Shown here: positions 44,055-64,000 of the stretch, in pieces | Layout of the letters: the number at the start of each line of letters is the position of its first letter | How positions within the stretch are numbered: the stretch's first letter is position 1 | Source of the DNA: Sinohyriopsis cumingii | Taxonomy: Eukaryota > Mollusca > Bivalvia > Unionida > Unionidae | Assembly: GCA_028554795.2 (NCBI GenBank) | Contig: CM068828.1 | Location: forward strand, 5,673,720-5,737,719 | Direction: 5' to 3' | DNA length: 64,000 bases | The notes under the pieces: generated by a model | Told to the model about the DNA's origin: nothing | The model's input: the letters and a program-made list of their open reading frames with translations, nothing else | Databases searched by the model: none | Program-made: the position numbers and the translations under genes

Positions 44055-44070
44055 TTCTATTATTATTCAT

Positions 44071-44086: not shown

Positions 44087-44094
44087 GAAATCCA

Positions 44095-44556: not shown

Positions 44557-44565
44557 CTTTATTAT

Positions 44566-44589: not shown

Positions 44590-44896
44590 GTGATTGACCC
44601 CCCCCCCTTCCCACCGCCGTGTGGAAAACCGGAATAAATTTTGACAAAATTTCCTTGGGTTTTTGCCCTCGATAAAAATCCGGTTTTTTTCTGGTTTTTT
44701 CTTGATTTTTAGTCATTTTTGGTCGTTTTTTGTTGCCTATAGTCGTTTTTTTTCGATTTTTCAGCAAAAACATCGATTTTCTCTAAATGATTTCCTGGGG
44801 TTTTTGCCCTCAAAAAATTGCCAAAAACGATAAGAAAACGACCAAAAATGGCCCAAAACGGTCAAAAATCGACAAAAAGCTGACAATTTTATAATT
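44590..44896. other. Intergenic repeat region between structural genes (element 1)
   Basis: There is no gene (a 79-codon frame at 44534-44773 is low-complexity and probably chance). The region holds two copies of TTCCT(T/G)GGGTTTTTGCCCTC (about 44652 and 44788). GGTCGTTTTTTGTT (about 44719) is answered by the inverted AAGAAAACGACC (about 44832), and GTCAAAAATCGACAAAAAGC lies at the end. A large AT-rich foldback is therefore possible. It could be a transcription terminator or a replication-linked structure; the evidence does not decide. Confidence 0.45.
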
Positions 44897-47403: not shown

Positions 47404-47416
47404 TTGTATAATAATA

Positions 47417-47758
47417 CTACTTGTCTAATTCATTATTTGGTTTAATTATAAACCTTGCAATGTAGTCCTGAGGAGTTTTGATGACGAAGTCTGCGGTGGG
47501 GTCAATGACGGCGTTTTTTATTCGCTTGTCGTAATAGCGTTTTAACTCTCTGTATCGCTTTCCGCCACAATTGATACACAACTGCGATTTTCCTCTTACA
47601 CCAACGTGGCAAACCAAGCACGGTAGGGGGCCAAGAGAACCATTACGAACGCTTTGTAAATGATACCCGCAGAATTCACCTCTACATGATTTATTGCACG
47701 GGGTTATCGACCCAATCATCAACCATTTGCAGTGATTCATTATACTATATTCTTTCAT
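47417..47758 (-). CDS. Small cysteine-rich zinc-binding protein (element 1)
   Basis: The product has 113 residues; the ATG at 47740 is a possible alternative start. The first 75 residues have the series C...C...CGYH...PCLVCHVG...LCINCGG, enough for two zinc sites. A basic helix follows (KRYRELKRYYDKRIK). The gene is divergent from the polymerase gene, with 21 bases between the ATGs, so a shared bidirectional control region is likely. A DNA-binding regulator is possible, but no specific family is assigned. Confidence 0.6.
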   Translation of the reverse strand: MKEYSIMNHCKWLMIGSITPCNKSCRGEFCGYHLQSVRNGSLGPLPCLVCHVGVRGKSQLCINCGGKRYRELKRYYDKRIKNAVIDPTADFVIKTPQDYIARFIIKPNNELDK

Positions 47759-47779
47759 TTAAATACTTGTTTTAATTAT

Positions 47780-50700: not shown

Positions 50701-51251
50701 CAGGGACAAAAAACAAATTCTTGTGCTGAATGATATTGTACTCGTTGATATCAGCGTCGTCGAGGACGCGCTACGTGCTGATAAATCCCCGTGGACGCTA
50801 GGATACGCAACGACAATACATTCCTCGCAGGGATTAACCATCACGGACACAATTGTTTGGATGGTTGATAATCGCATCGAATGGTCAAATCTAGTCTATC
50901 TTGCAGTGTCCCGAGTACGGAGAATGAATCAGCTTCGAAGAATTGTTATTGACGAAGCCACCGACGAAGCCGGCGACAACGATGCTAGCGTCATTGATAG
51001 AAAACTCTCGGGTTACCGCCAACAGGATAAAAAAACAGCGGCGTTTTGATATTGATGCCGAATTAATAATTGCGTTACGACAACAACAGAATAATCACTG
51101 CGCGAGTTGCAATTGTGTAATGCGCTGGCGTTATTCGGATAAAGACGCTCGCCAATTTACCGTGGATAGGATCGATAACAGTTTCGGTCATATCCGTGGT
51201 AATGTGAGGTTAACTTGTCTTGAGTGTAATAGACGCAACGGCGCTAGTTAA
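47780..51251 (+). CDS. POLB: DNA polymerase B - SF1 helicase - HNH fusion gene with frameshifts (element 1)
   Basis: The gene spans about 1150 codons in four frames: 47780-49015, about 48900-50729, about 50700-51049 and about 51020-51251. The N-terminal about 370 residues contain NCVAERVIEHF and IDHNEHAW, which could be a Cys/His pair. The polymerase palm follows: motif A at 49014 (DMVACYPASF), a motif-B-like IIGKFTQGG (about 49480) and motif C at 49773-49799 (VAVDSFYID). Then comes an SF1 helicase: Walker A GCGGSGKTT (50010-50036), Walker B WDEIC (about 50220), GDHGQ (about 50308), HSSQG and YLAVSRVR (about 50820-50920). The end is an HNH module (CASCN, DRIDNSFGHIRGNV, CLECN; 51093-51240). 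No frame after the first starts with a usable ATG, so this is one gene. The shifts fall near poly-A runs (A6 at about 50709, A7 at about 51030). It would replicate the element. Maverick polymerases normally lack a fused helicase. Confidence 0.75.
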
Positions 51252-52188
51252 GACCACGCGGGGGCAATTGAGTATCGTCAGGTATCACTTGTAGTTGCTC
51301 GCGAGTAAATCCGCGCTGAGGAGCAGTTGAATCCAGTCTATAGATCGGTGGTCTACCAGTTGATCGTGTTATCGTTGATATGTTATGTGTGGTAACACTC
51401 CAAATAGGATCAGTAGCTCTTTTTTTACCGCCTTCAAGCTCTCCTGGTTCATACAGATATCTGACAGTGACATCGCCGAGAATCGGCTTGGAAACGCTAT
51501 CTATTTTTGATCTTCCGGGTATGTACTCGTATTTAATCGCGTCGCTGGGCTTCATGTTGATTGCTCGGGTAATCTCGTTATTTAACGCTGCAATTACGCC
51601 TGGCAACCTTTTGACCCATTCACGAGATCGTTTTTCTTGGATGAATTCCTTCGCGTATTGATACCCAAATAACCGTTCAGCAAGAGTCCGATTGAATCGT
51701 TCAACAATTGCCTGATCACGATGTAGCGCAGTATGACCTCGTCGTATCGCGACGCTATGATGTTTCAGCGTTGATAAAACAGCGCCGCGAAATTCATTGC
51801 CAGGATCAACTTGTAATAGATTTGGCCAGCGCAGAGGACCCCTTCGGTAAATCCGCTCAAACGCATCGGCTACTTCAGTTGCTGACTTTGTTTTTAACGG
51901 CTCCGCTTGTTTGTATCGACTCGCAACATCAACTACGGTTAGCGCGTATTTGTAACCGTTGTCATGCGGCAGAAATAATATATCAGCCTGATGAACTTCA
52001 TTAGGTACGCTGACATCAAAGTGTGAGAAGTTTATTTGTTTAGGCGGTGGTAGATAAATTTGCCATATAGCCTGTTTGGATAACCAATTAGCCGCAACGG
52101 CCTTTGTTACCTTTGCAGCGCTTGCGAGTTTACCAATTGCGGCCTTTCCTTTCCAGTATCCTCTCGGAGAATAATAGATGGATTCCAT
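51244..52188 (-). CDS. INT: Retroviral-type (RVE) integrase without chromodomain (element 1)
   Basis: It catalyses insertion of the element's linear DNA. From the ATG at 52188 it has 314 residues. The catalytic triad is Asp69 (HQADILFL), Asp128 (LQVDPGNEF) and Glu163 (AIVERFNRTL), a DD34E-type spacing normal for the family. A C-terminal SH3-like region follows (GDVTVRYLYEP...PIWSVTTHNI...YRLDS). I chose 52188 and not the longer frame from 52245 because the shared promoter motif lies just upstream of 52188. Its stop overlaps the end of the convergent HNH frame by 8 bases. Unlike element 2's integrase it has no chromodomain, so targeting is probably different. Confidence 0.93.
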   Translation of the reverse strand: MESIYYSPRGYWKGKAAIGKLASAAKVTKAVAANWLSKQAIWQIYLPPPKQINFSHFDVSVPNEVHQADILFLPHDNGYKYALTVVDVASRYKQAEPLKTKSATEVADAFERIYRRGPLRWPNLLQVDPGNEFRGAVLSTLKHHSVAIRRGHTALHRDQAIVERFNRTLAERLFGYQYAKEFIQEKRSREWVKRLPGVIAALNNEITRAINMKPSDAIKYEYIPGRSKIDSVSKPILGDVTVRYLYEPGELEGGKKRATDPIWSVTTHNISTITRSTGRPPIYRLDSTAPQRGFTREQLQVIPDDTQLPPRGLN

Positions 52189-52199
52189 GTTGTTATTAT

Positions 52200-52220
52200 A
52201 AACGCTAGCGTTTTCAATTA
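52200..52220 (-). promoter_or_regulatory. Shared palindromic motif before the integrase start
   Basis: Minus strand: TAATTGAAAACGCTAGCGTT. It contains the perfect palindrome AAACGCTAGCGTTT and the TGA stop of the upstream gene, and it places the integrase start at 52188. Confidence 0.75.
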
Positions 52221-52753
52221 CCAGCGCGAGAAGCTCCGCTTCCAATCATTAATTTACCTTTCATAGCTGATTTTACCAACCATGAAGCCAATTTTTCTTT
52301 GAATGATTTATCAGGAATAGCATTTAACACGTGAATTAATTTTACATCCGCGATATGACGCTGTTGCAAATAACCGCTACGATAAGCTATATCATGTATC
52401 CGACATGCTTCGTCGATAGCGTTTATTGGATACTCACCGGGTCGCGGCTGATTTTGATCATCGAGTCTGATATCTAATCGTGTTCCGGGGCCACAGTAGC
52501 TATATCCTGGGAGGTGCTTTTCTCCTGGATACTTTGCCCACGGTGTTCCGGGGAGTTTTGATAACTTGGCTGCAATATCACCTCCTCGCTTTTTTTTTAA
52601 AGCATCCTCGGGTCTAGCAGAAATAAATCTAAATTTTTTTGTACCGCATTGTACACACTTACCAGTAAGCGCCGATCTGTTATTTCTCGTTGTAACGGTT
52701 GTCATATCATTTGTGCCAGTACGCACTCTACACTTCACACAATATAGATCCAT
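52214..52753 (-). CDS. Zinc ribbon plus phospholipase-A2-like protein (element 1)
   Basis: The product has 179 residues. Residues 4-45 form a zinc ribbon with Cys5, Cys8, Cys33 and Cys36 (YCVKC...GKCVQCG), of the DUF5679 kind. Residues 80-130 match the phospholipase A2 fold of the parvovirus VP1 type: Ca-loop YCGPGT (86-91), then DEACRIHDIAY with His120-Asp121 as the catalytic pair. The joining segment, LPGTPWAKYPGEKHLPG, resembles the C-terminal repeats of the 42126-42599 protein. Known PLA2 domains of this type help virions leave endosomes; here the role is inferred. The gene is divergent from the ATPase, with only 5 bases between the ATGs. Confidence 0.85.
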   Translation of the reverse strand: MDLYCVKCRVRTGTNDMTTVTTRNNRSALTGKCVQCGTKKFRFISARPEDALKKKRGGDIAAKLSKLPGTPWAKYPGEKHLPGYSYCGPGTRLDIRLDDQNQPRPGEYPINAIDEACRIHDIAYRSGYLQQRHIADVKLIHVLNAIPDKSFKEKLASWLVKSAMKGKLMIGSGASRAGN

Positions 52754-52758
52754 AATTT

Positions 52759-53433
52759 ATGTATAGAGATATGAATATAATTGATTTTTCGGCGACTAAA
52801 ACGAGAGAACCAGTTAAGCATGTTGCAGCGTTACCAAACTCGATCCGGATAATTATCATCGGACCATCTGGATCCGGCAAGACGCAATTGTTACTTAATT
52901 TAATAATGAGATGGATGAAGTGGGATAAGTTGTATTTAATCGCCCCTAGCGTGGATGATCAACGATGCTACGAGGTGTTGAAAGATTTTAACGAGAATGC
53001 ATCAGCGATCGCTGAAAAAAATGTTATTGAGTTTATTACAGATATCAATGATGCACCAGGCATTGATGATATTGATGGCGACGTTAACAATCTAGTCGTG
53101 TACGATGATGTTATGTTAGACAATCAAAAAAACCCAGCTAGGATATTTTCCAGAGGCAGGCATAAAAACACCGACGTGATATATGTCACTCAACGATACA
53201 CTCAGATTCCAAAAGTAATCAGAGACAACTGTAATATTCTTGCTGTATTCAACGGCGTTGATACACACACGCTACGAAATATTTGGCAGACATGGTGCGG
53301 CGGTGACATGGACTTTAATGGTTTTCGAAACTTTTTTAGTCATGCTCAGTCGACCCCACATGGATTTGTAACGATAAATTTACATGATCCTCGGACACGA
53401 TATCGTATCGGACTTGACCAAATATTCGGTTAG
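52759..53433 (+). CDS. ATP: FtsK/HerA (A32)-type genome-packaging ATPase (element 1)
   Basis: The product has 224 residues, the usual size. Walker A is GPSGSGKT (35-42). Walker B is LVVYDDVM with Asp116-Asp117. An arginine-rich RGRHKNTDVIYVTQR follows, with the sensor-type Gln in VTQR. It powers loading of element DNA into capsids. It is transcribed toward the right end and stops 13 bases before the terminal repeat. An alternative start, MNIIDFS, is four codons downstream. Confidence 0.92.
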   Translation: MYRDMNIIDFSATKTREPVKHVAALPNSIRIIIIGPSGSGKTQLLLNLIMRWMKWDKLYLIAPSVDDQRCYEVLKDFNENASAIAEKNVIEFITDINDAPGIDDIDGDVNNLVVYDDVMLDNQKNPARIFSRGRHKNTDVIYVTQRYTQIPKVIRDNCNILAVFNGVDTHTLRNIWQTWCGGDMDFNGFRNFFSHAQSTPHGFVTINLHDPRTRYRIGLDQIFG

Positions 53434-53446
53434 TTGTAAATAATTT

Positions 53447-53694
53447 TCATTGTAAATAACTACTTAGCAGCAGGGGGGGAAATGACATCGACGCGGTCGT
53501 CGCTGTGTTTACCGGACGCTGACAAAACTGGGATCGGCTCGCATTAAACCAAATGACGTCACCATCGTGTAGGATGGACCGACGTCGTTTTTTTTTTACC
53601 AGGCGACGACTACACCGGATCCGCTGAGTGCAGAAAGTAATAATTAAGCAAAATAACGATTGGACAAAATGTCCGATTCGCCCCTCCTGCTGCT
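53447..53694 (-). repeat. Right terminal inverted repeat of element 1
   Basis: It mirrors 38343-38602 with few changes and lacks one internal TTCTGCACTCAGCG copy. It is bounded on both sides by AGCAGCAGGGGGG and its inverse (53466 and 53694). Confidence 0.95.
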
Positions 53695-53699
53695 ATTCT

Positions 53700-54212
53700 T
53701 AAAGCGCTCCCGTCTTAAATAAAATCCACTAATACTTAAGCAATGTTCAAGCCAGTGTGACTCTCTGTAAGTTCTTTGGTCTGCAGAACTAAAGGCTGCA
53801 TCTCCCAGTCCTCGTTTAAGATCGAAGATTCGGTCCTTCTACTCGTCCAGGCACGTTCAGGAGACTTGTAATCACATAAGTAGTAAATGGGGTGAGATTA
53901 GCGACAATGGGAATTAGCATTACAGAGACCCCTGGGTCAGATTAGCGACAATGGAAATTTAACATGGCGAAAAATCGTGGGTCAGATTAGCGACAAGGGA
54001 AATTAACATGGGAATAAATCGTGGGTCACTCTAGCGACAAGGGGAATTTAACATGGAACTATAGTGTGGGTCTGTCTAGCGACAAGGGGAAATTAACATG
54101 GGGAATAGAGTTCGGGCTTTTGGGATTTTTTTTTTTTTAAATTTAAATTTAAATTTAAATTTAAAAAAGGGGTAGGCAATGGAAAGGCTATCTCTTTTCG
54201 AGAAATATGGCT
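53700..54212. other. Spacer between the two elements, with possible left end of element 2
   Basis: Positions 53700-53885 show no feature. Positions 53890-54106 are a tandem array. Positions 54139-54166 are (AAATTT)n-like and palindromic. The actual left terminus of element 2 cannot be fixed, because its right end is outside the window. Confidence 0.4.
53890..54106 (+). repeat. Tandem repeats at the probable left edge of element 2
   Basis: Five units of about 45-48 bases share GGGTCAGATTAGCGACAA.GG followed by AATTTAACATGG. The spacers between cores are similar and not unique. They may be terminal or origin-type repeats of element 2. Confidence 0.7.
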
Positions 54213-54230
54213 GGCCCTGAAAAGGGCCTT
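54191..54230 (-). terminator. Histone-mRNA-type 3' stem-loop and downstream element, cassette A
   Basis: Minus strand: CCAAAGGCCCUUUUCAGGGCC then AGCCA (stem-loop 54213-54228; six base pairs, UUUC loop). This equals the animal histone mRNA consensus, including the 5' CCAAA flank. A purine-rich CGAAAAGAGA (54191-54200) sits where the U7-binding histone downstream element is expected. The stem begins 22 bases after the stop codon. Confidence 0.8.
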
Positions 54231-54250
54231 TGGGTTTTCTTCTTCTGCTT

Positions 54251-54640
54251 CTAATTTCTTCTTTTTCTCCACCAAGTTCTTATTTTATCTCCAACACTCT
54301 TTCTCTTCTTCTCTTTCTTTTTCTCCTGCTCTTCTTTCTTCTTCTTCTCTTCCTCCTCTTCTTTCTTCCTCTTCTCATTTTCTTCTTCTTTTTCAATCTT
54401 TTCGTTCCATTTGCTTATTCTTATTCTTTCCTCTTCATCCTCCTTCTCCTCCTTTATCTCTTTCATGACACCACTAATCTTGTCCTTTACCTTTTTTAAG
54501 TTATTAATTTCCATCTTTACACGATGGGGACTATAGGAATAATGGTCTTCAACCAGTCTTATTAACATCTGCTCCATCATTCCTAAGTTGTCTAAAACGT
54601 CTTGTAATGTTTGTATTTTGTCCATTTGGTTAGAAGCCAT
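54251..54640 (-). CDS. Cassette gene A: short coiled-coil protein (element 2)
   Basis: The product has 129 residues and the gene is intronless. The N-terminal 45 residues have regular Leu/Met spacing (LQDVLDNLGMMEQMLIRLV), as in a helical hairpin. Residues 60-115 are almost pure Glu/Lys. The end is basic and Trp-containing (RTWWRKRRN). It is probably a diverged relative of the genes at 55398-55772 and 56271-56651, which share size, strand, promoter motif and 3' stem-loop. Function is unknown; a chromatin or DNA-associated role is a guess from charge. Its mRNA is predicted to end at a histone-type stem-loop. Confidence 0.6.
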   Translation of the reverse strand: MASNQMDKIQTLQDVLDNLGMMEQMLIRLVEDHYSYSPHRVKMEINNLKKVKDKISGVMKEIKEEKEDEEERIRISKWNEKIEKEEENEKRKKEEEEEKKKKEEQEKKKEKKRKSVGDKIRTWWRKRRN

Positions 54641-54689
54641 CTTCTTTTTTTATTCTTTGCAGAATGGTTTGAACGACGAATACGATGGG

Positions 54690-54802
54690 TTCTTATACTT
54701 AAAGCGCGTACGTGAAGGAAAACATCCCCCTAAAACGTAAAATTGATCTTACCTAGATCATGACCAAACAACGCGCGAACGTGAAGGAAAACATCCCCCT
54801 AC
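54690..54802 (-). promoter_or_regulatory. Promoter of cassette gene A with duplicated upstream motif
   Basis: The motif, read on the plus strand, is AAAGCGCGTACGTGAAGGAA continuing as AACATCCCCC (about 54703-54733). It recurs as ACGCGCGAACGTGAAGGAAA at about 54770-54802. On the minus strand a TATA-like AAGTATAAGAA (about 54693-54703) follows it, 50-60 bases before the ATG. The same motif precedes cassettes B and C. Confidence 0.6.
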
Positions 54803-55260
54803 TTTTTCATTTCATATAATAAAACCCAAACTATACTTTTTCATTTCATATAATAAAAACCCAAACTATACTCTCCACATACGCTAAGAAACAATAAACA
54901 AAATCCATAATCTACTATCCACACAATCTTACGTGAGCGCTTACAAAACCCAAACTATACGCTTCACATACGCTAAGAACAATAAACAAATCCATAATCT
55001 ACTATTCACACAATCGTACGTGAGCGGGTACAAACACAAACACAAACACACAAACACAAACACACAAACACATACGCTAAGAACAATAAACTAATCCATA
55101 ATCTACTATCCACACAATCGTACGTGAGCGCTTACAGAACCCTAACTATACTCTTCACCTACGCTAAGAAACAATAAAGAAACCCATAATCTACTATTCC
55201 CACAAACATACCTGAGCTCTTACAAGCACCAACACACAAACACATACCCTCACACTATCT
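54803..55260. repeat. Tandem array upstream of cassette A
   Basis: Repeated units contain ACGCTAAGAACAATAAAC, CCATAATCTACTATCCACAC and CGTACGTGAGCGCTTACA, with a period of about 85-115 bases and four imperfect copies. A (CA/AAC)-rich tract lies inside (55030-55075). A shorter duplication, TTTTTCATTTCATATAATAA, precedes it (54804-54870). It is non-coding. Confidence 0.7.
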
Positions 55261-55268
55261 TAAAAAAG

Positions 55269-55346
55269 AGTTAGTGTTTATAATCACACTACTCTACCTA
55301 CACACATTGGCAAATCGATCGTTATTTCTTTTCTAGAGTATTGGGT
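55269..55346. repeat. Duplicated downstream segment (matches 56148-56222)
   Basis: About 75 bases, from 'gttagtgttta' through 'tcacactactctacctacac' to 'tttctagagtattgg', are almost identical at 55269-55346 and 56148-56222, just beyond the stem-loops of cassettes B and C. This shows the cassettes arose by segmental duplication. Confidence 0.85.
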
Positions 55347-55362
55347 AGCCCTGAAAAGGGCT
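55325..55362 (-). terminator. Histone-mRNA-type 3' stem-loop and downstream element, cassette B
   Basis: Minus strand: AGCCCUUUUCAGGGCU (55347-55362), six base pairs with a UUUC loop, followed by the consensus 3' flank ACCCA. Purine-rich AGAAAAGAAA (55325-55334) is at the U7-type position, about 12 bases after the stem. The stem begins 35 bases after the stop. Confidence 0.8.
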
Positions 55363-55397
55363 GTTTTTTTTTTGTTTGGAACTTCATGGACACCTGG

Positions 55398-55772
55398 TTA
55401 ATGGTGGCACCTTCCAGGCCTGGCGCCGCATACACATCTTATCCCCCAATTACTTTTTACCTTTTGGGGGGAGAGAGCAGAGGCAGGATATGTCGCTTCA
55501 GAATCCCAATTTTCGCTCTCTGGGATTCTGAAATTTCTTCTTCTTCTCTCCTTTTCCTCCTCCTCCTCTTCTTTGCATCTTCTCTCCTCCTCTTTGTATC
55601 TTCTTTCCTCTTCTTTATATCTTCTCTCCTCCTCTTCTTTGTTTCTTCTTTCCTCCTCCTCTCTTATCCTTCCCTCCTCCACAATGGCTTCCGCGGCCAG
55701 TTCATTTAATATGCGCCTGGCATATTCCAGATGCACATGAAGTTCCAACAGTTTCTCCAGTCTCGTGTTCAT
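55398..55772 (-). CDS. Cassette gene B: short charged coiled-coil protein (element 2)
   Basis: The product has 124 residues. The N-terminus (RLEKLLELHVHLEYARRIL) has the same Leu pattern as cassette C (SKLAKLNEAYVNLHRVRHSL). Residues 35-78 are EEERR/YKEEERR repeats encoded by a low-complexity tract. The last 40 residues (containing CVCG and CHH) are different in character and might reflect an old frameshift. Promoter and 3' stem-loop are shared with cassettes A and C. Function is unknown. Confidence 0.55.
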   Translation of the reverse strand: MNTRLEKLLELHVHLEYARRILNELAAEAIVEEGRIREEEERRNKEEEERRYKEEERRYKEEERRCKEEEEEEKERRRRNFRIPESENWDSEATYPASALSPQKVKSNWGIRCVCGARPGRCHH

Positions 55773-56203
55773 TTTTGGTGTTGATCAATCAACAAGGGTA
55801 GCTGGACTGCCGAACGAGTTTCAATTTATAGTGAAAGCGCGGACGTGAACGAAAACATCCCCTAAAAACATAAAATTGATCTTACCTACATCATGACCAT
55901 AAAACAACGCGCGGACCTAAAAGAAACACTCACTCACTTTTTATGCTACCCATCACTATTTTAAAATTTTTTTTAAATCACTTCAATAGACTATCCACAT
56001 ACGCAAAGCAATCCAATCTAACCCCCAAATTTACACCTCAAACACCAAAAAAAAAGAGATCATTTTAATCTACTATCCATACCAACTTACTTAACCACTT
56101 ACAAACACAAACACACAAAAACATACCCTCACATTTTTTTAAAAAAGAGTTAGTGTTTATTTTCACACTACTCTACCTACACACATTGGCAAATCGATTG
56201 TTA
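55773..56203. promoter_or_regulatory. Promoter of cassette B and spacer to cassette C
   Basis: A TATA-type CACTATAAAT (minus strand, about 55826-55836) is followed upstream by the shared motif AAAGCGCGGACGTGAACGAA (plus-strand reading, about 55836). A weaker second copy is near 55905 (ACGCGCGGACCTAAAAGAAA). Between them, TAAAATTGATCTTACCTA and ATCATGACC match the cassette A upstream region. The remainder to 56147 is AT-rich with nothing recognised. Confidence 0.55.
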
Positions 56204-56241
56204 TTTCTTTTCTAGAGTATTGGCTAGCACTGAAAAGGGCT
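56204..56241 (-). terminator. Histone-mRNA-type 3' stem-loop and downstream element, cassette C (one mismatch)
   Basis: Minus strand: AGCCCUUUUCAGUGCU (56226-56241), flanked by AGCCA. One of the six stem pairs is a C-U mismatch. AGAAAAGAAA (56204-56213) is at the same distance as in cassette B. The stem begins 29 bases after the stop. Confidence 0.7.
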
Positions 56242-56270
56242 GTTTTTTTTTGTTTGCTATGGCATTCTTT

Positions 56271-56651
56271 TTAGTTTCTAAGAATGCGATGTCCTCTGAG
56301 GATAGACTTTCTGGCGATAGGTCTGCTTCGTCGGAAAGAGAAGAAGAACTCTTTGGTGTCGATACGACAATCGACAAAGCCTCTGTCAGCTTCAGGTTGC
56401 TGCTGCTGCTCTTGTTGTTGTTGTTGCTGCTGTCTCTGAAGTCTGTACTTCTCTGTCCATTCTTCTTTTTCCCTGTTCATTTCTTCTCTGAAGAGCTCTT
56501 CTATCAGGTCTTCAGTGATTTTTAACATTCTCACATTCTCTATTTCTTCTGGCTTCGGTATCAGACTGTGTCTGACCCTATGCAAATTCACGTAGGCTTC
56601 GTTGAGTTTAGCTAGTTTGGAGCACATCTTCTTAGGAGGATGAGTCGACAA
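56271..56651 (-). CDS. Cassette gene C: short Gln/Glu-rich helical protein (element 2)
   Basis: The product has 126 residues. The N-terminal 35 residues match cassette B's Leu pattern. Residues 50-72 are helical and charged, and 73-87 are a poly-Gln run. The C-terminus is basic (FRRSRPIARKSILRGHRIL). It shares the upstream motif and histone-type 3' end with cassettes A and B, but its body has diverged. Function is unknown. Confidence 0.55.
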   Translation of the reverse strand: MSTHPPKKMCSKLAKLNEAYVNLHRVRHSLIPKPEEIENVRMLKITEDLIEELFREEMNREKEEWTEKYRLQRQQQQQQQEQQQQPEADRGFVDCRIDTKEFFFSFRRSRPIARKSILRGHRILRN

Positions 56652-57059
56652 TGGATGGTTAGACTGGAAACTGCCCCGGTTCTTAAAGTCAAAGCGCGGA
56701 CGTGAAGGAAAACATCCCCCACACGGTTTTTGAGTCGCAACGTTCAGTGAGTGTCATGAGAGGGATAGTAAGAAATGAAAGAGCATCAATCCAACATTCT
56801 TATAGCTAAACAAAAGACAAAGGCATTTTTTTCAAAACACAACATTTTTTATTCAAAAATCACTTAACACTAAACAACAACTCTAACATTTTTAACAATA
56901 ATCCAACAATATAACATCAAACAATTTTTTCAAAACACAACATTTTTTATTCAAAAATCACTTAACACTAAACAACAACAACTCTAACATTTTTTAACAA
57001 CAATGCAACACTAAAAGTTTCTCCACTAGGTAAAGAGGGATAACAGTCTTCCATGGTTT
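56652..57059. promoter_or_regulatory. Promoter of cassette C and spacer to the capsid gene
   Basis: The shared motif AAAGCGCGGACGTGAAGGAA (about 56691-56710), continuing AACATCCCCC, lies upstream of a TTTAAG TATA-like site (minus strand, about 56681). Positions 56824-57010 contain a 70-base direct duplication (TTTTTTCAAAACACAACATT to AACACTAAACAACAAC). No gene is seen. Confidence 0.5.
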
Positions 57060-58373
57060 CTAGTAATCTAGGATGACTTCTCTCAAACTGTTGATTTCTA
57101 TGGTATTATCGAATTCTGCATACAGGATGACGTTCACCGTTTCATCAGGGTCTCGGTCTTTAAACTGAATTTCCACACGAATCTGGCCGGATTTTATAGG
57201 GTGGAAATGTCCCTCGTCGCTGCCTTGGTCTGGAGTGAAATCGAAAGCCCACAAAGCGTAGCCTCCTCCATAATCCTCGTACGTAATACCGTGACTGGTA
57301 TTGGTTCCTAACTGTCCGGTGGCTTCGTACAAGGACAAGTACGATCTCAAGTAATTCTTCTTTTTAAAGTCAGGTTCGAAAGGTCGGGTACACAAGGTCT
57401 TGCCATCGCGACTGACTTCGATTTTGGACACGCCAAAGTGTTGAAAGTAGAAAGGATTTTTTTCGGCAGCTCCGTTGAAGGCTGTATTCTCGACGATACC
57501 AACGATCAAACGTTTGGGTAACTGTCCTTGGAACAGATGATCTTCGATCATGGATCGCTGTCCCTTGGGAATGGTGAAGGTTTTCACTTCCACGCGTCGT
57601 ATGGGATACTTGGCGGTCGTTCTGCTCAACGTCTGACTGATGTCGTTTCCCACTTTAGGTAACACTTCCACACGGCGTACGTAGAGTCTGGCTTCTAGGA
57701 TTTTGGTTTTGTAACCGTCACTATCAGCCATCAAATGGAAAGCGGCACTGCTACGATTCAGTCTCAGGCGGACATCCACCCCGTTCAGCAAATACTTTTC
57801 TTGCAACCACATGTCCAAATGCAAACGATCCATCAGTTCTAAACTTGTGTCGGCTCCCGTGATTCTCTTTCTTCGTTCTACAAATCCATCATTGTTGTCT
57901 TTCTTTTCATCAGTTTCCAATATTTCAAACTTGGTAGGTTCGTCAGCTTCCCATACCACACAGGCATTGAGATGAGTGTTCTTGGCATCTATTCCGTACG
58001 TCAAGAGATTTTCCAGGTAGGCACGATAAGGGTAAGTATCCATGCTGCTACTGACCAGTTTGTTATTCAAATACAAGTCCACTCCACTGAACAAGGAATG
58101 CATGAAACTGTTGACGGGAGCTACTGCTTCATCGTCTATAGCACCTCCAGTCTTATCTAGAATTTTGACTTTCAGGTACAAGTAACTGCTACTCAGATCG
58201 ATGTAATCTTCGGGCTGTCCTTTGATTTCAAACTCGATGGGAGCGGAATCGGTCAGTGAGGAGACGGGGTGAAATTCCACCCACTGGGATTCTTGCATCG
58301 TCATCATCGTGGGGGGCATGGCAAACAGATTCAGTTCCGTCTTGGAACAAGCGCAAGATTCTCGGTGCATCAT
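57060..58373 (-). CDS. MCP: F54H12.2-type double-jelly-roll major capsid protein (element 2)
   Basis: The product has 437 residues and is intact. The N-terminus (CSKTELNLFAMPP) and the SQWVEFHPVSSL...IEFEIKG block match the protein annotated in many invertebrate genomes as 'F54H12.2-like', which I take to be the capsid protein of this Maverick lineage. The segment NSFMHSLFSGVDLYLNNKLV...YPYRAYLENLLTYG (about 85-130) is characteristic of double-jelly-roll capsid proteins. It is not alignable by eye to element 1's capsid protein, beyond being the same fold class. The next gene ends 16 bases upstream, so it is read as part of a compact minus-strand block. The fold assignment is by recognition, not computed. 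Confidence 0.78.
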   Translation of the reverse strand: MMHRESCACSKTELNLFAMPPTMMTMQESQWVEFHPVSSLTDSAPIEFEIKGQPEDYIDLSSSYLYLKVKILDKTGGAIDDEAVAPVNSFMHSLFSGVDLYLNNKLVSSSMDTYPYRAYLENLLTYGIDAKNTHLNACVVWEADEPTKFEILETDEKKDNNDGFVERRKRITGADTSLELMDRLHLDMWLQEKYLLNGVDVRLRLNRSSAAFHLMADSDGYKTKILEARLYVRRVEVLPKVGNDISQTLSRTTAKYPIRRVEVKTFTIPKGQRSMIEDHLFQGQLPKRLIVGIVENTAFNGAAEKNPFYFQHFGVSKIEVSRDGKTLCTRPFEPDFKKKNYLRSYLSLYEATGQLGTNTSHGITYEDYGGGYALWAFDFTPDQGSDEGHFHPIKSGQIRVEIQFKDRDPDETVNVILYAEFDNTIEINSLREVILDY

Positions 58374-58389
58374 TTTTTTGTCTCTTTTC

Positions 58390-58806
58390 TCAATAATCGA
58401 AAACGTCTAAGTCTCGAACGGTTCTTCTTTTCTTGGCCTTTCTCGCTTGAAGTCTGGTGAAAGGGTGTTTTCTTCGTCGTCTCTTTCTGCCTTGTCCTTG
58501 CTGAATGCCTGACTCGGTAGCGTGCAGGGCATTTATAGGTGTTTCTCGTTGGCCTAAAATGTCTTTGCCCGTTTGCAGCAAGACATTTTTGCCTGCCCTC
58601 ATGAAGGCTTCTTTAGGGTTTTGTTTGTCGATGATGACATTTTGGAGAAATTCTTTGCCTTGTGTCAGTGCCGCATCTTTCAAGGCGTGCAATCCGCGTG
58701 TCACCATCGGTTTCAACATCGGGGCCACCGAACGAAAGGCCGATTTTAACATATCTCCTAAGCCGTGTCCTCGCTGTCGAGCAACCCCTCGGTACACTGG
58801 ATACAT
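58390..58806 (-). CDS. Basic core/minor capsid protein of the PVYRG type (element 2)
   Basis: The product has 138 residues. It starts MYPVYRGVARQRGHGLGDML, the counterpart of element 1's 44095-44556 protein. A helical middle follows (VAPMLKPMVTRGLHALKDAA), then a strongly basic end with GRKRRRRKHPF and KAKKRR. It probably binds DNA or sits under the capsid vertices. It lies next to the capsid gene and starts 3 bases after the stop of the next gene. Confidence 0.65.
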   Translation of the reverse strand: MYPVYRGVARQRGHGLGDMLKSAFRSVAPMLKPMVTRGLHALKDAALTQGKEFLQNVIIDKQNPKEAFMRAGKNVLLQTGKDILGQRETPINALHATESGIQQGQGRKRRRRKHPFTRLQARKAKKRRTVRDLDVFDY

Positions 58807-58809
58807 GAC

Positions 58810-59733
58810 TTAAGAGTCGTGAGAGAACCGTTTTCGAAAATGGAGTTTCACCGTGACTTTTCCTTTGGTGAATGGAATATTTTGTCCCAGATCTCCTTTT
58901 ATAGCAATGTTGACCGTGTCCAAATACGACTTACTGACAGGCAAATAGTGAGGATGGACAAATTCGCGGTGGACGTGGTAAGTGTTTCCACCTTCCTCGT
59001 CAGTGTTCGTGGCAGAATCCACTTTGAAAGGAATGACACGCAGTAACGGTACGGAGGTGTGTCCCACCACGTTGTACTCCACCACATCGGAATACACGAA
59101 CATCAAATTCAGTCCTTGGTTCAGTTCTACCGGGGCACGAAATAACTTGCTAAAAGACTCGTTGTCGTAAACGATGGGTAATTCGTTTTTCTTGATCATG
59201 GTCTTTCTCATGTCCATGTCTCCGCCCAACATGTCAAACAATTCAGGACAAAATAAAATGGACAGGATTTTACTCCGTTCAAATTTCATCAAGAAGCGAC
59301 GAGCTGCTTTGTGGTACTCCATGGTGACATTTTTGTTGACATGCTCCAAAGCTTTCAGAAACACGACATTAAACCTGGAGGTTATGGTGCTGACCAAATG
59401 TTGACCACTAAAATAATAGCCTGGGGGAATGAACAAGTGATAGGTGGTGTACTTTTGTGTACGGGTTTTCTTGTCATATTTGACATTGCTATCCATCCAC
59501 TGTTGCATTTGCTCGTCATGAACTTCCACATCAAAAAAATTTTGATTGGGAAGGACATTGAGGACTTGGGTCGGGTGAATCATTTCTACTAAAGCCACTT
59601 CCCAATGGGCTTCGTGATCTAACTGGATGGCTTGAGGTAATTTGGCCGTGTAACAGCACAACGTGTTCTTGGGAAACACCTCCATGGAACTGTCACTGGG
59701 TAAGGTTAAGTAAAATTGGTTTTGGTGACTCAT
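58810..59733 (-). CDS. Conserved FYLTLPS-type virion protein, candidate penton/minor capsid (element 2)
   Basis: The product has 307 residues. It begins QFYLTLPSDSSMEVFPKN, then LPQAIQLDHEAHWEVALVEM, IPPGYYFSGQHLV and a beta-rich C-terminus ending GKVTVKLHFRKRF. This family accompanies F54H12.2-type capsid genes in many invertebrate elements. The layout matches element 1's 38594-39916 protein, though that one has about 130 extra residues. Its start overlaps the stop of the membrane-protein gene (ATGA). The precise structural role is not established here. Confidence 0.65.
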   Translation of the reverse strand: MSHQNQFYLTLPSDSSMEVFPKNTLCCYTAKLPQAIQLDHEAHWEVALVEMIHPTQVLNVLPNQNFFDVEVHDEQMQQWMDSNVKYDKKTRTQKYTTYHLFIPPGYYFSGQHLVSTITSRFNVVFLKALEHVNKNVTMEYHKAARRFLMKFERSKILSILFCPELFDMLGGDMDMRKTMIKKNELPIVYDNESFSKLFRAPVELNQGLNLMFVYSDVVEYNVVGHTSVPLLRVIPFKVDSATNTDEEGGNTYHVHREFVHPHYLPVSKSYLDTVNIAIKGDLGQNIPFTKGKVTVKLHFRKRFSHDS

Positions 59734-60146
59734 AATTCCAGAGTTCTGTGGCTGTCCGAGGGGTTACTGGACGTCAGAGGCGTGTCTCCGTCTAAAATGG
59801 GGTTCTGGTTGTGATTGAAGTGGTGACTGGCACTGGCACTGGACACAAGGTTCCCGGGGTTCCCGTTCGAGGTGAATTTCAGGGAGGGATTAGGAAGCAG
59901 GTAACCGATGCAACTGCTCAATAAAATGGTCCACAATTGTTTGTCTCCTTGTTGCAAACTCAAATTGGCGATGGCTGCCCCGATGACACAATACACCACG
60001 AAGATTTGGCAGAAAAAGACGATTTGCGTTTTAGGCACACGTTCTCCACACCACACCCACAAGGGTTGTTTTTGTAAATCTTGCACAGAAGAACTAGGTG
60101 AAGGAGGAGTGGTCGACGTAACTGCGTCTGCTGTGTGAAAGGGCAT
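59730..60146 (-). CDS. Two-pass membrane protein (element 2)
   Basis: From the first ATG (60146) the product has 138 residues; the longer frame to 60155 begins with GTG. Two hydrophobic segments are clear: IVFFCQIFVVYCVIGAAIANL (about 42-62) and LWTILLSSCIGYLLP (about 70-85). A Ser/Asn-rich tail follows. The WVWCGERVPK...LPNPSL pattern recurs beside capsid genes in invertebrate Maverick elements. It is possibly a virion or host-membrane protein; function is unknown. Confidence 0.65.
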   Translation of the reverse strand: MPFHTADAVTSTTPPSPSSSVQDLQKQPLWVWCGERVPKTQIVFFCQIFVVYCVIGAAIANLSLQQGDKQLWTILLSSCIGYLLPNPSLKFTSNGNPGNLVSSASASHHFNHNQNPILDGDTPLTSSNPSDSHRTLEL

Positions 60147-60151
60147 GATGG

Positions 60152-61261
60152 TCACTTCTTTTTATAGTCGATGACTTGCGAAGCGTAGATCCAAGAATCA
60201 AAACTGGGTGGATATCCTTTCCAACGTAATTTGACTTCTTTGACACATCGTTTGCCCACTTTACGGGTTCTGCGTTCGAGAATGCTTTCGATGTCGTACA
60301 CGTCGTCTTCTTTTTTGGTGACACGTTGTAACTTGGGCAAATAAAACGTTCCTTTGAGCAGTTCTCCGTTCATGTCTTCCAATTTATAGACGGCAGGATG
60401 ACGGCCATGCACTCGTCCAGTGACGCGAAACAATTCGGCCGTCCAGTTAGGTAAGTAACCTTTGTCGAAAGTGCGTTTGGTTTTGCCAATGCGCACCCAA
60501 TCTCCTACGGCCAACTCTCCACTTTTCTTGGGGACAGCCCTCGTCGGGGACGTACCAAACAGGTGCTCAAACACCAACACTTCGTTGTCGGTAGTCACGT
60601 CTTCCGGGGCACGTCCGATGCTTCGACGGTAAGATTGGTTGTACGCTTGCACCAGGTGCGGTAAGATGTCGATGTACTTCAGAGTGTGGTGATGCGTAAA
60701 ATATTTCCACATGCGTTCTTTCAATGTGCGTTGAGAACGTTCCACGATGCTGGCTTTGGTTTCGGGATTCTCGGTGGTAAAAAAATGAATGTCACGTTTC
60801 TTTAATTCTTTTTGGAAAGCTTGGTTCAGAAATTCGGTGCCTTTGTCCGTTTGCCATCGAAGAGGGTGACGACCGCTTTGTTTCAACACCCGTTGCAGGG
60901 CTCGCACTAACTCGCTGCTCGATTTGGAAGTCAAGGGCACGACCCAGGCAAATTTGGAAAAGACGTCGATGACACAAAACAAATATTTGTAGCCACGATT
61001 GTAGCTGGCCAAATGAGAGACATCAGCTAAATCGGCTTGCCATTGATGATCGATGCCTTCCACTCGGGTGCGACTTCTGGCAAACTTGCGTCGAATGGGT
61101 TTGTGTAAAGTGTAGGTAGCTTGTTCTTGTAACCATCGTTGCACTTGAGGTAAACGGAGACTTTTCAGTCGCGTTTTGGCAGCACGATACAATTTTTGAA
61201 CTCCTGCGTAACCTGCAGGATGGGAGGGATCGTAATAAATGCTGGCTAAGACTTTTTCCAT
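60152..61261 (-). CDS. INT: RVE integrase with C-terminal chromodomain (element 2)
   Basis: The product has 369 residues. The core triad is Asp77 (WQADLADV), Asp139 (QTDKGTEF) and Glu174 (SIVERSQRTL). An SH3-like segment follows (GDWVRIGKTKRTFDKGYLPNW). The last 50 residues are a chromodomain (YDIESILERR...VKLRWKGYPPSFDSW), which in Maverick integrases and chromoviral retroelements is thought to direct insertion to methylated-histone chromatin. The protein is intact. The first gene of the downstream block (60146) starts only 5 bases beyond its stop. Confidence 0.96.
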   Translation of the reverse strand: MEKVLASIYYDPSHPAGYAGVQKLYRAAKTRLKSLRLPQVQRWLQEQATYTLHKPIRRKFARSRTRVEGIDHQWQADLADVSHLASYNRGYKYLFCVIDVFSKFAWVVPLTSKSSSELVRALQRVLKQSGRHPLRWQTDKGTEFLNQAFQKELKKRDIHFFTTENPETKASIVERSQRTLKERMWKYFTHHHTLKYIDILPHLVQAYNQSYRRSIGRAPEDVTTDNEVLVFEHLFGTSPTRAVPKKSGELAVGDWVRIGKTKRTFDKGYLPNWTAELFRVTGRVHGRHPAVYKLEDMNGELLKGTFYLPKLQRVTKKEDDVYDIESILERRTRKVGKRCVKEVKLRWKGYPPSFDSWIYASQVIDYKKK

Positions 61262-61282
61262 TTTTTTGTGTTGGTTGATGTG

Positions 61283-61921
61283 TTAAAAAGACACCCACTC
61301 TTGGAGGATGCTACTCTTTTTCTCTTGGTGTATTTTCTTGGATTGCAATGCTTTGCGTGTGCGGCCAGCAATAGGTGTCGAAGAGGAGAAGGATGTCTGA
61401 GCGGGGGATATCGGTTCTTGTTTCACTTCTGTCTTCACTTCTGTCTTCACTTTCTTTTTCTCTTGTGAGGAAGAAGGGGTGGCCATCATCTTTTTAATCC
61501 ATCCAATTCTGGAGGTAGGTGGTGTTGTTAACTTGCGTACTTTTTCTGGTGGAGTTTGAAACCCTTCCTCTTCTTCTCCTTTTTCTGTCTTGGTCACGGG
61601 TACTGGTGGTACTGGTACTGGTACTGGTGATGGTGCTGGACTTTTCATCAAGGTCTTAAAATCTTTCAGAGTGGGTAGAGCTGTTTCGTCTAAAGCTTTC
61701 TGGTGAAAGAGTTGCAGTCGTTGCAAGAGTTGACCGTACTTTTGCGATTTTTCTGTTTCGGACAAATCTTGGCGATCCATCAAGGACTGCAATTCGTGTT
61801 GTAACTGGGACATCTCGCTCAAATGGGGATTGGGAGGTAATTGCGGGGTGTGTTGTTCTTGCCATCGATGGTATTCCATCCATCGTTTGTAAGGCACTAA
61901 AGCTAGTTTTCGTCCTTCCAT
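61283..61921 (-). CDS. Pro/Lys-rich internal protein (element 2)
   Basis: The product has 212 residues. The N-terminal 95 residues form helices (KLALVPYKRWMEYHRW; LSEMSQLQHELQSLMDRQDLSETEKSQ-type). Then come a Pro/Val repeat (PVPVPVPPVPV), an acidic patch and a Lys-rich tail. It resembles a helical protein commonly beside integrase in this lineage; function is unknown to me, and an internal or core protein is likely. A TATA-like AGATAAAAAGG (about 61962-61973, minus strand) lies about 40 bases before the ATG. Confidence 0.6.
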   Translation of the reverse strand: MEGRKLALVPYKRWMEYHRWQEQHTPQLPPNPHLSEMSQLQHELQSLMDRQDLSETEKSQKYGQLLQRLQLFHQKALDETALPTLKDFKTLMKSPAPSPVPVPVPPVPVTKTEKGEEEEGFQTPPEKVRKLTTPPTSRIGWIKKMMATPSSSQEKKKVKTEVKTEVKQEPISPAQTSFSSSTPIAGRTRKALQSKKIHQEKKSSILQEWVSF

Positions 61922-61969
61922 GGGGTTGTCAGGGGTCGATTCTGAGATCTTGGAACTTCCGAGGCCTTT

Positions 61970-62356
61970 TTATCTTGCTCCCACCAGTCCTCCCAACATG
62001 GTTCCCAAGACTCCTTTCGGTATGGGGCCTAACAAGAGAGGTAAAATACCTCCACGTTGCACTAACATCTTCTTTTTTTGACGAATGGGAATTTTCTTTT
62101 GAACCATTTGGCGAAGAACGTGACGATGTTTGCCTAAGCATTGTTTCTGGTGTTTGGACAAAGGGATCGTGCCTTTCAAAACGTTCAAACAACATTCGCA
62201 CACGGTATCGATGACCTCTTTGGAGGCTGTTTGAATGAGTTTTTTTCGTAGGGGTGGAGAAGCTTTGGAAAGGACAGATAACATGTCCCCATGTTTGGCT
62301 AAACGTGGTGGCAGTCCTTTCCTTTTCTTTCCTTGGGGTTTTCTGGAGGGTGACAT
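61970..62356 (-). CDS. Small basic protein with Gly-rich hydrophobic tail (element 2)
   Basis: From the ATG at 62356 the product has 128 residues; the longer frame from 62386 begins with GTG. It is Lys/Arg-rich with VCECCLNVLKGTIPLSKHQKQCLGKH, then MLVQRGGILPLLLGPIPKGVLG. This arrangement, a helical domain followed by a GG-hydrophobic tail, is recurrent in Maverick elements. The tail could interact with membranes or pack in the capsid. A TATA box, AGTATAAAAAAGG (about 62408-62420, minus strand), lies about 55 bases upstream and supports the 62356 start. Confidence 0.7.
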   Translation of the reverse strand: MSPSRKPQGKKRKGLPPRLAKHGDMLSVLSKASPPLRKKLIQTASKEVIDTVCECCLNVLKGTIPLSKHQKQCLGKHRHVLRQMVQKKIPIRQKKKMLVQRGGILPLLLGPIPKGVLGTMLGGLVGAR

Positions 62357-62414
62357 CTTTGAGTCTTCAGGAGCACCAAAAAACACTGATACCCGACTTG
62401 GTCACAGGCCTTTT

Positions 62415-63335
62415 TTATACTGGAACGCGTCGCCACTGATTGTCTTTACGTCGTATTAGTTTGAGGACAGGCATGACACGTCGTGCAGGGGTACGTAAAG
62501 GACTAAATCGAGCCAGTTCTTGCTTGGACAAATCCAGTAAACTTTGTAACATGCCCGATCTTTCTTGAACTTTGATTTTGGGAGAAGGTACTTTGTGAGC
62601 AGCAGCCACTGCCACTAAATTGGAAGGTCCTGCCACTGGGGAAGTTCTTTTGGGGGTCATCAACGGAGAAGTTCTTCGTGTGATCAACGTCTCCAAGTAC
62701 TCTTCAGTTCTGGGTGTCATTAACGGAGAAGTGGACAAACGTGAAGCTGCCGGAGACGCAGTCACTGCCGTGGCAGGTCGTGGTTTGCGAGTGTAAGGTT
62801 GCGTCCTGGCCGAAGTGCCTCTCTTGCGACTAGTTTTCTGTGGACTTTTCTTTTTCTGGGGGCTTCTTTTCTTTTTCCGGGGTGGTGGTGGTGTCTGGTC
62901 AGAGGAGGGTCCTGCCACTGGAGAAGTTCTCCTTGGGGACCTGGTCTTTTTCTTCTTGGGGCTTCGTTGGACTTTTGTCTTGGGTATAACTTTGGGGGCA
63001 TTAGGATCCCATCTTAAGAGTGAGCGAATGATGACCCCTCCTAGAGTACCGCTCCCTCCAGGTTTCAAAATTATTTGTTTTTTGGTTTGAGTGTCGATGC
63101 GGGGATCGGCCAGTTGGACCAAAGCGACTTTGTTTCGATCGAAAAAGCGTTTGGTTTGATGAGGAATCTGAATGATTCCTTGGAGTAATTGACGTGCCGT
63201 CACCGTGAACCATCGTAAGACTTCTTTGAGACTAGCTTCTAAGACACGAGCTCGTGTTTGTGGATTTTTTTCTCGACTGATGCCATACAAGGCACGAATC
63301 AATTTGACGGGAAGATGCGACTGAAGGGACGTCAT
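62415..63335 (-). CDS. Lys/Arg/Pro/Ser-rich core protein (element 2)
   Basis: From the ATG at 63335 the product has 306 residues. The N-terminal 110 residues (LPVKLIRALYG...LLQGIIQIPHQTKRFFDRNKVALVQLADPR...KKQIILKPGG) parallel the 61970-62356 protein, including the Gly-Gly step, so the two may be paralogues. The rest is a series of SPKKKK, SPRRTSPVAGPS and SPLMTP repeats, a strongly basic, phosphorylation-prone region like sperm-protamine or viral core proteins. It is predicted to condense DNA. A TATA box, CTATAAAAACC (about 63373-63383, minus strand), supports the start. The gene overlaps the 3' end of the ATPase frame. Confidence 0.65.
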   Translation of the reverse strand: MTSLQSHLPVKLIRALYGISREKNPQTRARVLEASLKEVLRWFTVTARQLLQGIIQIPHQTKRFFDRNKVALVQLADPRIDTQTKKQIILKPGGSGTLGGVIIRSLLRWDPNAPKVIPKTKVQRSPKKKKTRSPRRTSPVAGPSSDQTPPPPRKKKRSPQKKKSPQKTSRKRGTSARTQPYTRKPRPATAVTASPAASRLSTSPLMTPRTEEYLETLITRRTSPLMTPKRTSPVAGPSNLVAVAAAHKVPSPKIKVQERSGMLQSLLDLSKQELARFSPLRTPARRVMPVLKLIRRKDNQWRRVPV

Positions 63336-64000
63336 GTTCGCACTGTGTGAGACAGACGAAAAAGGGTCTGAGGTTTTTATAGATTTTTTTATGGGGAGTG
63401 AAATGAAGTCGAGGACGGAGACGTGTACAGGACAGGCCCTCCGTCTTGGCACCAGTGGTGAAACAAGTGGGTACGAAATCGCAAATCCTCGGGAGTTGTA
63501 GGTTCAAATCGACGAGTAAATAGGCGTGTGGCGTTTGAGTGGCATCGTCGTACGCCTGAGTCAGCCAAGGCTTTCCTAACTGTTTGGCTAAGACTTGCAC
63601 TTGCGATTTATCTCGAGGGCTTTTAAACAAGACCACGTAATGCGCATTGAGACTGATGGTGCGATGGGCTTTACTTTGTTGAAACAAATTTTGGGTGATG
63701 TAAACGACACTGGCATTACGGTGATGCCCTTTGCGCGTGAACCACAGTTTAATTTCTTCTTCGTCTTCTCCTAACATGTCGTCGAAAATGACCAAATGGG
63801 TTAGACGGGAGTCAGAGACGATGCCGTCGTCTTCTTTAGGAATGCCTTCCACAAACACGATGGAATCGCCTTGACTTTCTCGCAAGAGGCTGTACGCCGA
63901 TTGCCACTCTTTGTAACACCACACGATTCGTTGAGGGGGTCGATCGATCAAATGATGTTTATGTTCGATCAAACGTTTGACGAATTCGGTTTTGCCTGAA
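63232..64000 (-). CDS. ATP: FtsK/HerA-type packaging ATPase, partial (element 2)
   Basis: The window edge cuts the gene at its Walker A motif: the last bases encode SGKTEFVKRL, in frame with the rest. Walker B is LVIFDDM (about 63775-63795). RKGHHRNASVVYITQNLF follows, with the sensor Gln. The order and spacing agree with element 1's ATPase, but the sequence is distant. The C-terminal about 70 residues overlap the N-terminus of the core-protein gene in another frame. The true start lies beyond 64000. Confidence 0.88.
   Translation of the reverse strand, partial: SGKTEFVKRLIEHKHHLIDRPPQRIVWCYKEWQSAYSLLRESQGDSIVFVEGIPKEDDGIVSDSRLTHLVIFDDMLGEDEEEIKLWFTRKGHHRNASVVYITQNLFQQSKAHRTISLNAHYVVLFKSPRDKSQVQVLAKQLGKPWLTQAYDDATQTPHAYLLVDLNLQLPRICDFVPTCFTTGAKTEGLSCTRLRPRLHFTPHKKIYKNLRPFFVCLTQCEHDVPSVASSRQIDSCLVWHQSRKKSTNTSSCLRS

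Follow-up and report, generated by a model that had tools for sequence, protein, structure and literature searches.

Do genes of a mobile, virus-like DNA element end their mRNAs in the way that histone genes do? This question is raised by a 64,000 nucleotide (nt) stretch of the genome of the bivalve Sinohyriopsis cumingii (contig CM068828.1, positions 5,673,720 to 5,737,719 of the forward strand), referred to here as the window, whose right-hand part is occupied by a Maverick/Polinton element. The animal stem-loop 3' end is known almost only from replication-dependent histone mRNAs. An initial annotation had proposed that three consecutive minus-strand genes of this element, here called A, B and C, each carry such an end, with a 16-nt stem-loop 22 to 35 bases after the stop codon and, 10 to 15 bases further on, a purine-rich site at which U7 small nuclear RNA (snRNA) would pair. 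All three stem-loops lie where that annotation had placed them, and so do the purine-rich sites. Taken with the findings set out below, the sequences make it quite probable that this Maverick/Polinton has put small accessory genes under the replication-dependent histone programme of its host, at both ends of the gene in A, B and C and at the 3' end in two further genes, D and E.

The three genes of the window and their 3' signals, with coding regions taken from the list of open reading frames, are as follows.

54251..54640, minus strand: gene A, a charged protein of 129 amino acids (aa) with a basic C-terminus
54213..54228, minus strand: histone-type stem-loop A, GGCCCUUUUCAGGGCC, 35.6 bits against RF00032 over 54188-54233
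54193..54199, minus strand: GAAAAGA of A, a U7-type histone downstream element, 13 nt 3' of the stem
55398..55772, minus strand: gene B, a charged protein of 124 aa with a Cys/Arg C-terminus
55347..55362, minus strand: histone-type stem-loop B, AGCCCUUUUCAGGGCU, 31.0 bits against RF00032 over 55322-55367
55327..55333, minus strand: GAAAAGA downstream element of B, 13 nt 3' of the stem
56271..56627, minus strand: gene C, a protein of 118 aa
56226..56241, minus strand: histone-type stem-loop C, AGCCCUUUUCAGUGCU, with one mismatched pair, found by pattern match
56206..56212, minus strand: GAAAAGA downstream element of C, 13 nt 3' of the stem

The distance from stop codon to stem-loop is 22 nt in A, 35 nt in B and 29 nt in C. 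When the whole window was searched with the Rfam Histone3 model (RF00032), stem-loop A scored above the cut-off of 34 bits with an E-value of 1.2e-6, and in a 26-kb search stem-loop B fell 3 bits short of that cut-off with an E-value of 2.6e-5. The initial annotation had looked to a covariance score above background, which is what A and B give; C alone would fail. It had also described the flanks as being of the animal histone type, naming CCAAA before A and ACCCA after B; ACCCA follows the stem in B alone, and in A and C the stem is followed by AGCCA. When hairpins were defined by a TTTC loop and a stem in which 5 or all 6 pairs are Watson-Crick, the combination of hairpin and GAAAAGA occurs three times in the window (A, B and C) and in none of 40 dinucleotide shuffles, whereas the hairpin without GAAAAGA is not rare (9 in the window versus a shuffle average of 6.1 and a maximum of 12). 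Taken together with the downstream element and the shuffles, the covariance score rules out chance hairpins. A 186-nt repeat, 89% identical, is common to B and C and so their stem-loops are not independent. As the initial annotation had held, the genes are not histone genes: no Pfam family, histones included, matched the proteins of A, B, C, D, E or a further gene F above its cut-off. The spacer between B and A (54902-55258) consists of four degenerate repeats spaced 87-104 nt apart.

The histone genes of the host, which lie in tandem units of about 8.3 kb, carry the same pair of signals. The 16-nt stem-loop of H2B, GGCCCUUUUCAGGGCC, is identical to that of element genes A, D and E and has GAAAAGA at 13 nt, and the 3' ends of H3 and H4 contain GGCCCUUUUUAGGGCC with GAAAAGA 13 nt past the stem. 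H3, H4 and H2A have the stem of H2B with another loop base, H2A showing a UUUA loop and GAAAAGG at 14 nt, and H1 has a different stem with GAAAAGA at 14 nt, giving GAAAAG 13-14 nt past the stem in all five host histone genes. The element genes are therefore like replication-dependent animal histone genes in their stem-loop, in a purine site at 13-14 nt and in their short single open frames, but they differ in that their proteins match no Pfam histone family and that their carrier is a virus-like element. A search of the host genome for its U7 snRNA gave no RF00066 match among the 65 of 801,960 candidates that were scored, and the controls gave no match either.

Beyond the window, in the next piece of the same chromosome (L140, starting at 5737720, directly after the window), two more genes of the element lie back to back and adjoin its polymerase gene.

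L140 5583-6143, minus strand: gene E, 186 aa, stem-loop with 41.2 bits against RF00032
L140 6364-6597, plus strand: gene D, 77 aa, stem-loop with 35.6 bits against RF00032

Each ends in a stem-loop with GAAAAGA at 13 nt, which brings the stem-loop genes of the element to five (A, B, C, E and D), two more than in the window. In ten 10-kb pieces, two continuing the window and eight around other copies of the element, all 16 RNA-family matches at Rfam cut-offs were Histone3, nine of them known from a genome-wide search and seven new; the B- and C-gene stem-loops in these pieces lie under the Rfam cut-off and are visible by pattern. The genome-wide Histone3 search, which scored 75 of 589,472 candidates, the window's own match not being among them, placed 69 at 42.6-45.6 bits and 6 at 34.5-36.5 bits. 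The histone peptides searched for were absent from all 30 Histone3 loci that were cut out (L110-L139), and in 28 of these a frame of at least 50 aa belonging to family A, D, E or F ends no more than 250 nt before the stem-loop. Gene F replaces A in some copies and has the same kind of 3' end. At four loci (L113, L124, L126 and L128) the gene at position A is the coiled-coil gene F, the coding part being swapped with promoter motif and 3' end kept.

The initial annotation had made its reading depend on the stem-loop being kept in related copies, and it is kept. Among 75 stem-loop sites from element loci and the window, limited to at most one substitution from the core pattern, the purine site is present in 70 and stands at exactly 13 nt in 68. 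When stops were located by protein sequence, a stem-loop followed in 15/15 cases for E, 14/14 for B and 6/6 for C, a total of 35/35, with up to two stem-loop substitutions allowed on the sense strand and all found within 75 nt of the stop; stem-loops that had served as seeds are left out of this count, but those of neighbouring genes had been seeds, and every copy is from the same host genome. The purine site follows after 33 of these 35 stops and is at exactly 13 nt in 31. No stem-loop was found within 200 nt past 17 stops of other element genes (three of capsid genes, three of a 160-aa gene, two of protease genes, one each of integrase, ATPase and polymerase genes, and six others), and the signals are confined to the accessory genes. 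Both protease genes have AATAAA 92-96 nt past the stop. At a further locus (L149) the distance between two gene-D-type stem-loops of like orientation is 9.7 kb, and a D/E pair lies beside the first, suggesting adjacent, nested or tandem elements.

In addition to the 3' ends, and beyond what the initial annotation had noted, histone-type promoters are present on A, B and C. A motif, M1, with the form GGATGTTTTC(C/G)TTCACGT(N)CGCGC lies upstream of all three genes with a TATA box 6 nt downstream (TTTAAG in C), and a second motif, M2, lies upstream of B.

54704..54727, minus strand: M1 of gene A, with TATAAG 6 nt downstream and an altered base in the CGTCCG core
54773..54796, minus strand: second, upstream M1 of gene A, from motif comparison
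55837..55860, minus strand: M1 of gene B, with TATAAA 6 nt downstream, matching the promoters of host H1 and H2B
55906..55926, minus strand: M2 upstream of gene B, 21 of 21 nt as in the host H4 promoter, from promoter comparison
56694..56717, minus strand: M1 of gene C, followed by TTTAAG and not TATA

The promoters of A, B and C have motifs of 24-26 nt in common with the host H1 and H2B promoters. That of H1 contains GGGATGTTTTCAATCACGTCCGCGCT with TATAT 5 nt past CGCGC, much like the element, and that of H2B contains GATGTTTTCCATCACGTCCGCGCT with TATAAA 29 nt further on. The host H4 promoter has TTTCTTTTAGGTCCGCGCGTT beside its TATA box and in gene B the same 21 nt lie upstream of the first motif, so that among the likenesses to replication-dependent histone genes we count the H1/H2B promoter motif on A, B and C and the H4 motif on B. 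Upstream of host H2A there is a related motif in opposite orientation, to which only C shows a match beyond shuffles. The matches of A, B and C with H1 and H2B, and of B with H4, are better than those of 200/200 shuffles and of 105/105 control pieces of host DNA, the controls being the rest of the window, and they score 17-21 versus no more than 12 for seven upstream regions of other element genes, all of which are without the motif. Similarity between element and host promoters is confined to the motif in these comparisons, and the sequences would fit transfer either from host to element or in the reverse direction. The GTCCGC core of the shared motif resembles the HINFP site, a possible parallel with HiNF-P/NPAT control of H4 promoters. 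HiNF-P, according to PMC5706932, binds subtype-specific H4 promoter elements and recruits NPAT. The proposal of the initial annotation that the element ties these genes to S phase gains from the host-histone motifs on A, B and C, and such timing is something that we infer.

The motif also gives some idea of the size of the family. With 22 fixed letters of 24 it occurs at 30,572 sites in the 2.9-Gb genome and its reversed control at none. The first 100 sites, in one 6.7-Mb stretch and not individually read, form 43 clusters, from which a rough extrapolation gives about 13,000 copies or fragments. Judged by these motif counts the Maverick family probably has thousands of copies in the genome, and perhaps ten thousand copies or fragments of a single Maverick family would be an unusually large expansion.

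The limits of the element itself bear on how the stem-loops may be understood.

53879..64000, no strand assigned: window part of the Maverick/Polinton, about 17 kb in all, with its right end in L140 at 6968
53873..53878, no strand assigned: left copy of the 6-bp target-site duplication CACATA, the right copy being at L140 6969-6974
53879..54237, no strand assigned: left terminal inverted repeat, 359 aligned nt, 99.2% identical to L140 6613-6968

The insertion looks recent because the terminal repeats are 99.2% identical. The stem-loop of A lies within the left terminal inverted repeat and that of D within the right one, which could suggest that the hairpins act in DNA, as parts of terminal repeats serving replication, integration or packaging, and that their likeness to histone signals is superficial. 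We regard this as very improbable: B, C and E are outside the repeats yet keep both stem-loop and purine site, the 35 stem-loops found on the examined sense strand all stand in gene sense within 75 nt of a stop with 31 having the purine site at 13 nt, and the host histone genes carry the same pair of signals.

Comparison of copies in five classes shows which parts of the 3' ends are maintained. Across the stem-loop the copies show an identity of 0.93-1.00, with 0.88-0.98 over the five nt that follow and 0.84-0.97 over the purine site. The corresponding values are 0.54-0.87 for upstream sequence, 0.65-1.00 for the spacer, 0.69-0.91 directly past the purine site and 0.29-0.74 at 45 nt downstream and beyond. 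The stem-loop and its flank are better kept than upstream and far-downstream sequence in 5/5 classes, with the stem-loop identity being in part a selection artefact since L110-L139 were picked by stem-loop score, and the purine site is better kept than the spacer in three of the five (A/F, E and B). In an alignment of 16 hand-chosen ends (11 from the element and 5 from the host) 98.9% of stem cells are paired, and the covariation score exceeds that of 500/500 shuffles. Of the distinct rows, 10 have G-C as their outer stem pair and 5 have A-U, with H1 having a further double change; the outer-pair changes amount to few events, because the A-U rows are B and C genes of common ancestry.

These data also bear on whether functionless fragments of the host histone cluster were captured passively and copied along with the element. 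The signals of the element are almost the same as those of the host, B and C have a local duplication in common, so numerous a family makes passive spread easy, and the advantage of the purine site over its spacer in only 3/5 classes is what such capture would allow. It is nevertheless an unlikely account, given that stem-loop and flank are better kept than upstream and far-downstream sequence in every class, and the purine site better than the spacer in three of the five (at loci partly picked by stem-loop score), that the outer stem pair has changed on both sides, that the signals are on five accessory genes and on 0/17 other stops, and that F, where it replaces A, has the same kind of 3' end.

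Placement of the five genes under the host histone programme must be set against a number of observations that weigh the other way. Stem-loop C gave no RF00032 match at E<=5 and has one broken stem pair. The purine site of class D (0.84) is not kept better than its spacer (0.86), and class C has a spacer identity of 1.00. As regards covariation, 28/500 shuffles were as good for pairs changed on both sides and 500/500 for pair types, so that these two measures are not clearly beyond chance. Homogenisation of the terminal repeats could keep the stem-loops of A and D alike, since both are located there. Among the promoters, A and B gave no significant match with host H2A, and A, B and C gave no match with host H3, which is without the motif. 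The D/E promoter reached a score of 10 with the histone promoters, none of the matches being significant (26/200 shuffles were as good against H3), and the region upstream of another element gene, 58390-58806, scored 12 with H4, which 2/200 shuffles equalled. A contig search of public genomes found two distant Mavericks, L001 and L002, and neither has the stem-loop, though both may end before the accessory genes. Finally, AATAAA lies 109 nt after the stop of C and 93 nt after that of E and ATTAAA 110 nt after that of D, and polyadenylation of these three transcripts is possible for that reason.

The last point leads to dual ends, with histone-type cleavage in S phase and polyadenylation further downstream otherwise. 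Human H2AC18, according to PMC9756948, can be processed either way, and like C and E of the element it combines a stem-loop and downstream element with a potential poly(A) signal close by; it differs in being a cellular histone gene whose poly(A) signal overlaps the downstream element, whereas in the element the signal lies beyond it. Window A and B have neither AATAAA nor ATTAAA within 200 nt past their stops. Dual ends are partly compatible with control by the host histone programme and we hold them to be possible but rather doubtful.

Under the preferred reading, that of accessory genes run by the host histone programme, SLBP and the U7 small nuclear ribonucleoprotein would recognise the stem-loop and purine site of the A-E mRNAs, which would be cut a few nt past the stem and have no poly(A). 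A, B and C would be transcribed in S phase by way of their H1/H2B/H4 promoter motifs, perhaps in the histone locus body. The predicted role of the A-E proteins is that of accessory products forming an early gene set coupled to replication, and this role, like the cleavage, the lack of poly(A) and the S-phase timing, is read from the sequence signals. We lean somewhat towards a broader interpretation in which a lineage of DNA viruses disguises its accessory, probably early, genes as histone genes. All of them would be processed at histone-type 3' ends and three would in addition be transcribed from histone-type promoters, so that they would be made in the histone locus body only while the host copies its DNA and as poly(A)-less mRNAs, with structural genes keeping ordinary signals. 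If true, this would be a virus-wide cell-cycle switch built from histone parts of the host, and the family that has it may number ten thousand copies or fragments in the genome. The element is an example of how the genes of a Maverick could be timed to the replication of host DNA, and it offers a natural experiment on the signals that are enough to couple genes to S phase. If the ends are of the histone type, poly(A)-selected RNA sequencing would miss the A-E transcripts, and should the motif count reflect the true number of copies, SLBP, U7 and the histone transcription factors could face competition from thousands of loci.

As to precedents, the initial annotation knew of no described Maverick with such signals. 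Among the papers listed in a literature search, none describes ends or promoters of the histone type on non-histone genes of viruses or Polintons. Histone stem-loop matches had, however, already been tabulated without interpretation in PMC12220804, where an Rfam scan at cut-off over 8,300 Polinton-like virus and virophage genomes gave 6 of them, none in cryptophyte elements; the section that tabulates them names neither the elements nor the genes concerned and gives no downstream site, comparison with a host or function. With regard to other viruses, all 107 IMG/VR stretches having the bare 16-nt core were rejected as chance, none combining an ACCCA-type flank with the purine site (AAAGAG is present in 2 of the 107), and 15/15 further stretches with half a stem and ACCCA were likewise rejected, forming only 3-5 of 6 pairs.

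The remainder of the element identifies it as a Maverick/Polinton.

L140 1092-4691, minus strand: PolB, viral type-B DNA polymerase (PF03175, E 8.8e-43)
60152..61261, minus strand: integrase with rve core (PF00665, E 1.8e-14) and chromodomain (PF00385, E 1.3e-5), both above cut-off
57060..58373, minus strand: putative major capsid gene, 436 aa, some relatives of which are named F54H12.2-like

Type-B polymerase, rve integrase with chromodomain, terminal inverted repeats, 6-bp duplication and putative capsid are all as in Mavericks/Polintons; what sets this element apart from the F54H12.2-like family of oysters and other animals is the presence of histone-type signals on five genes. The 436-aa putative capsid protein had no Pfam match and its matches to solved structures were no better than E 0.078. 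It has 844 relatives, and some among the 120 listed are named F54H12.2-like, in Crassostrea, Saccostrea and Ostrea. Gene order resembles that of L001, a Maverick contig from a tubeworm-symbiont assembly, with the capsid 43% identical and one neighbour 31%. L001 and L002 sit in bacterial assemblies (Escarpia endosymbiont and Breoghania sp.), most likely as animal contamination. Gene order and comparison by eye with L001 make 63232-63777, which lacks a Pfam match, a candidate A32-type packaging ATPase. No adenain-type protease frame was noticed among the open reading frames of the element in the window, and in a related copy a protease candidate (L148 1934-2494) matches PF00770 at E 0.02, below the cut-off. 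By eye, the window copy (56628-57060) seems to be without the protease gene and most of the 160-aa gene, which follow the capsid in L144 and L148. Searches of viral contigs gave no relatives of capsid, integrase or gene E, and gene E has 20 relatives in public proteins at 56-91% identity.

Among copies in the genome, the median ratio of non-synonymous to synonymous substitution rates (dN/dS) is 0.12 across 15 sequences of D, where protein constraint is clear, and 0.45 across 11 sequences of E, where it is weak. D and E are neighbours with a median dS among copies of 0.91 versus 0.086, a contrast that suggests recombination or different ages of the D alleles.

A second, different Maverick lies at 38342-53695 and gave no Rfam Histone3 match. 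It has its own terminal inverted repeats, with main arms 94-100% complementary, and encodes a double jelly-roll-like capsid (PF21738), a phospholipase A2-like domain (PF08398) and a Pox_A32-type ATPase, and it ends 183 bases before the element with the histone signals.

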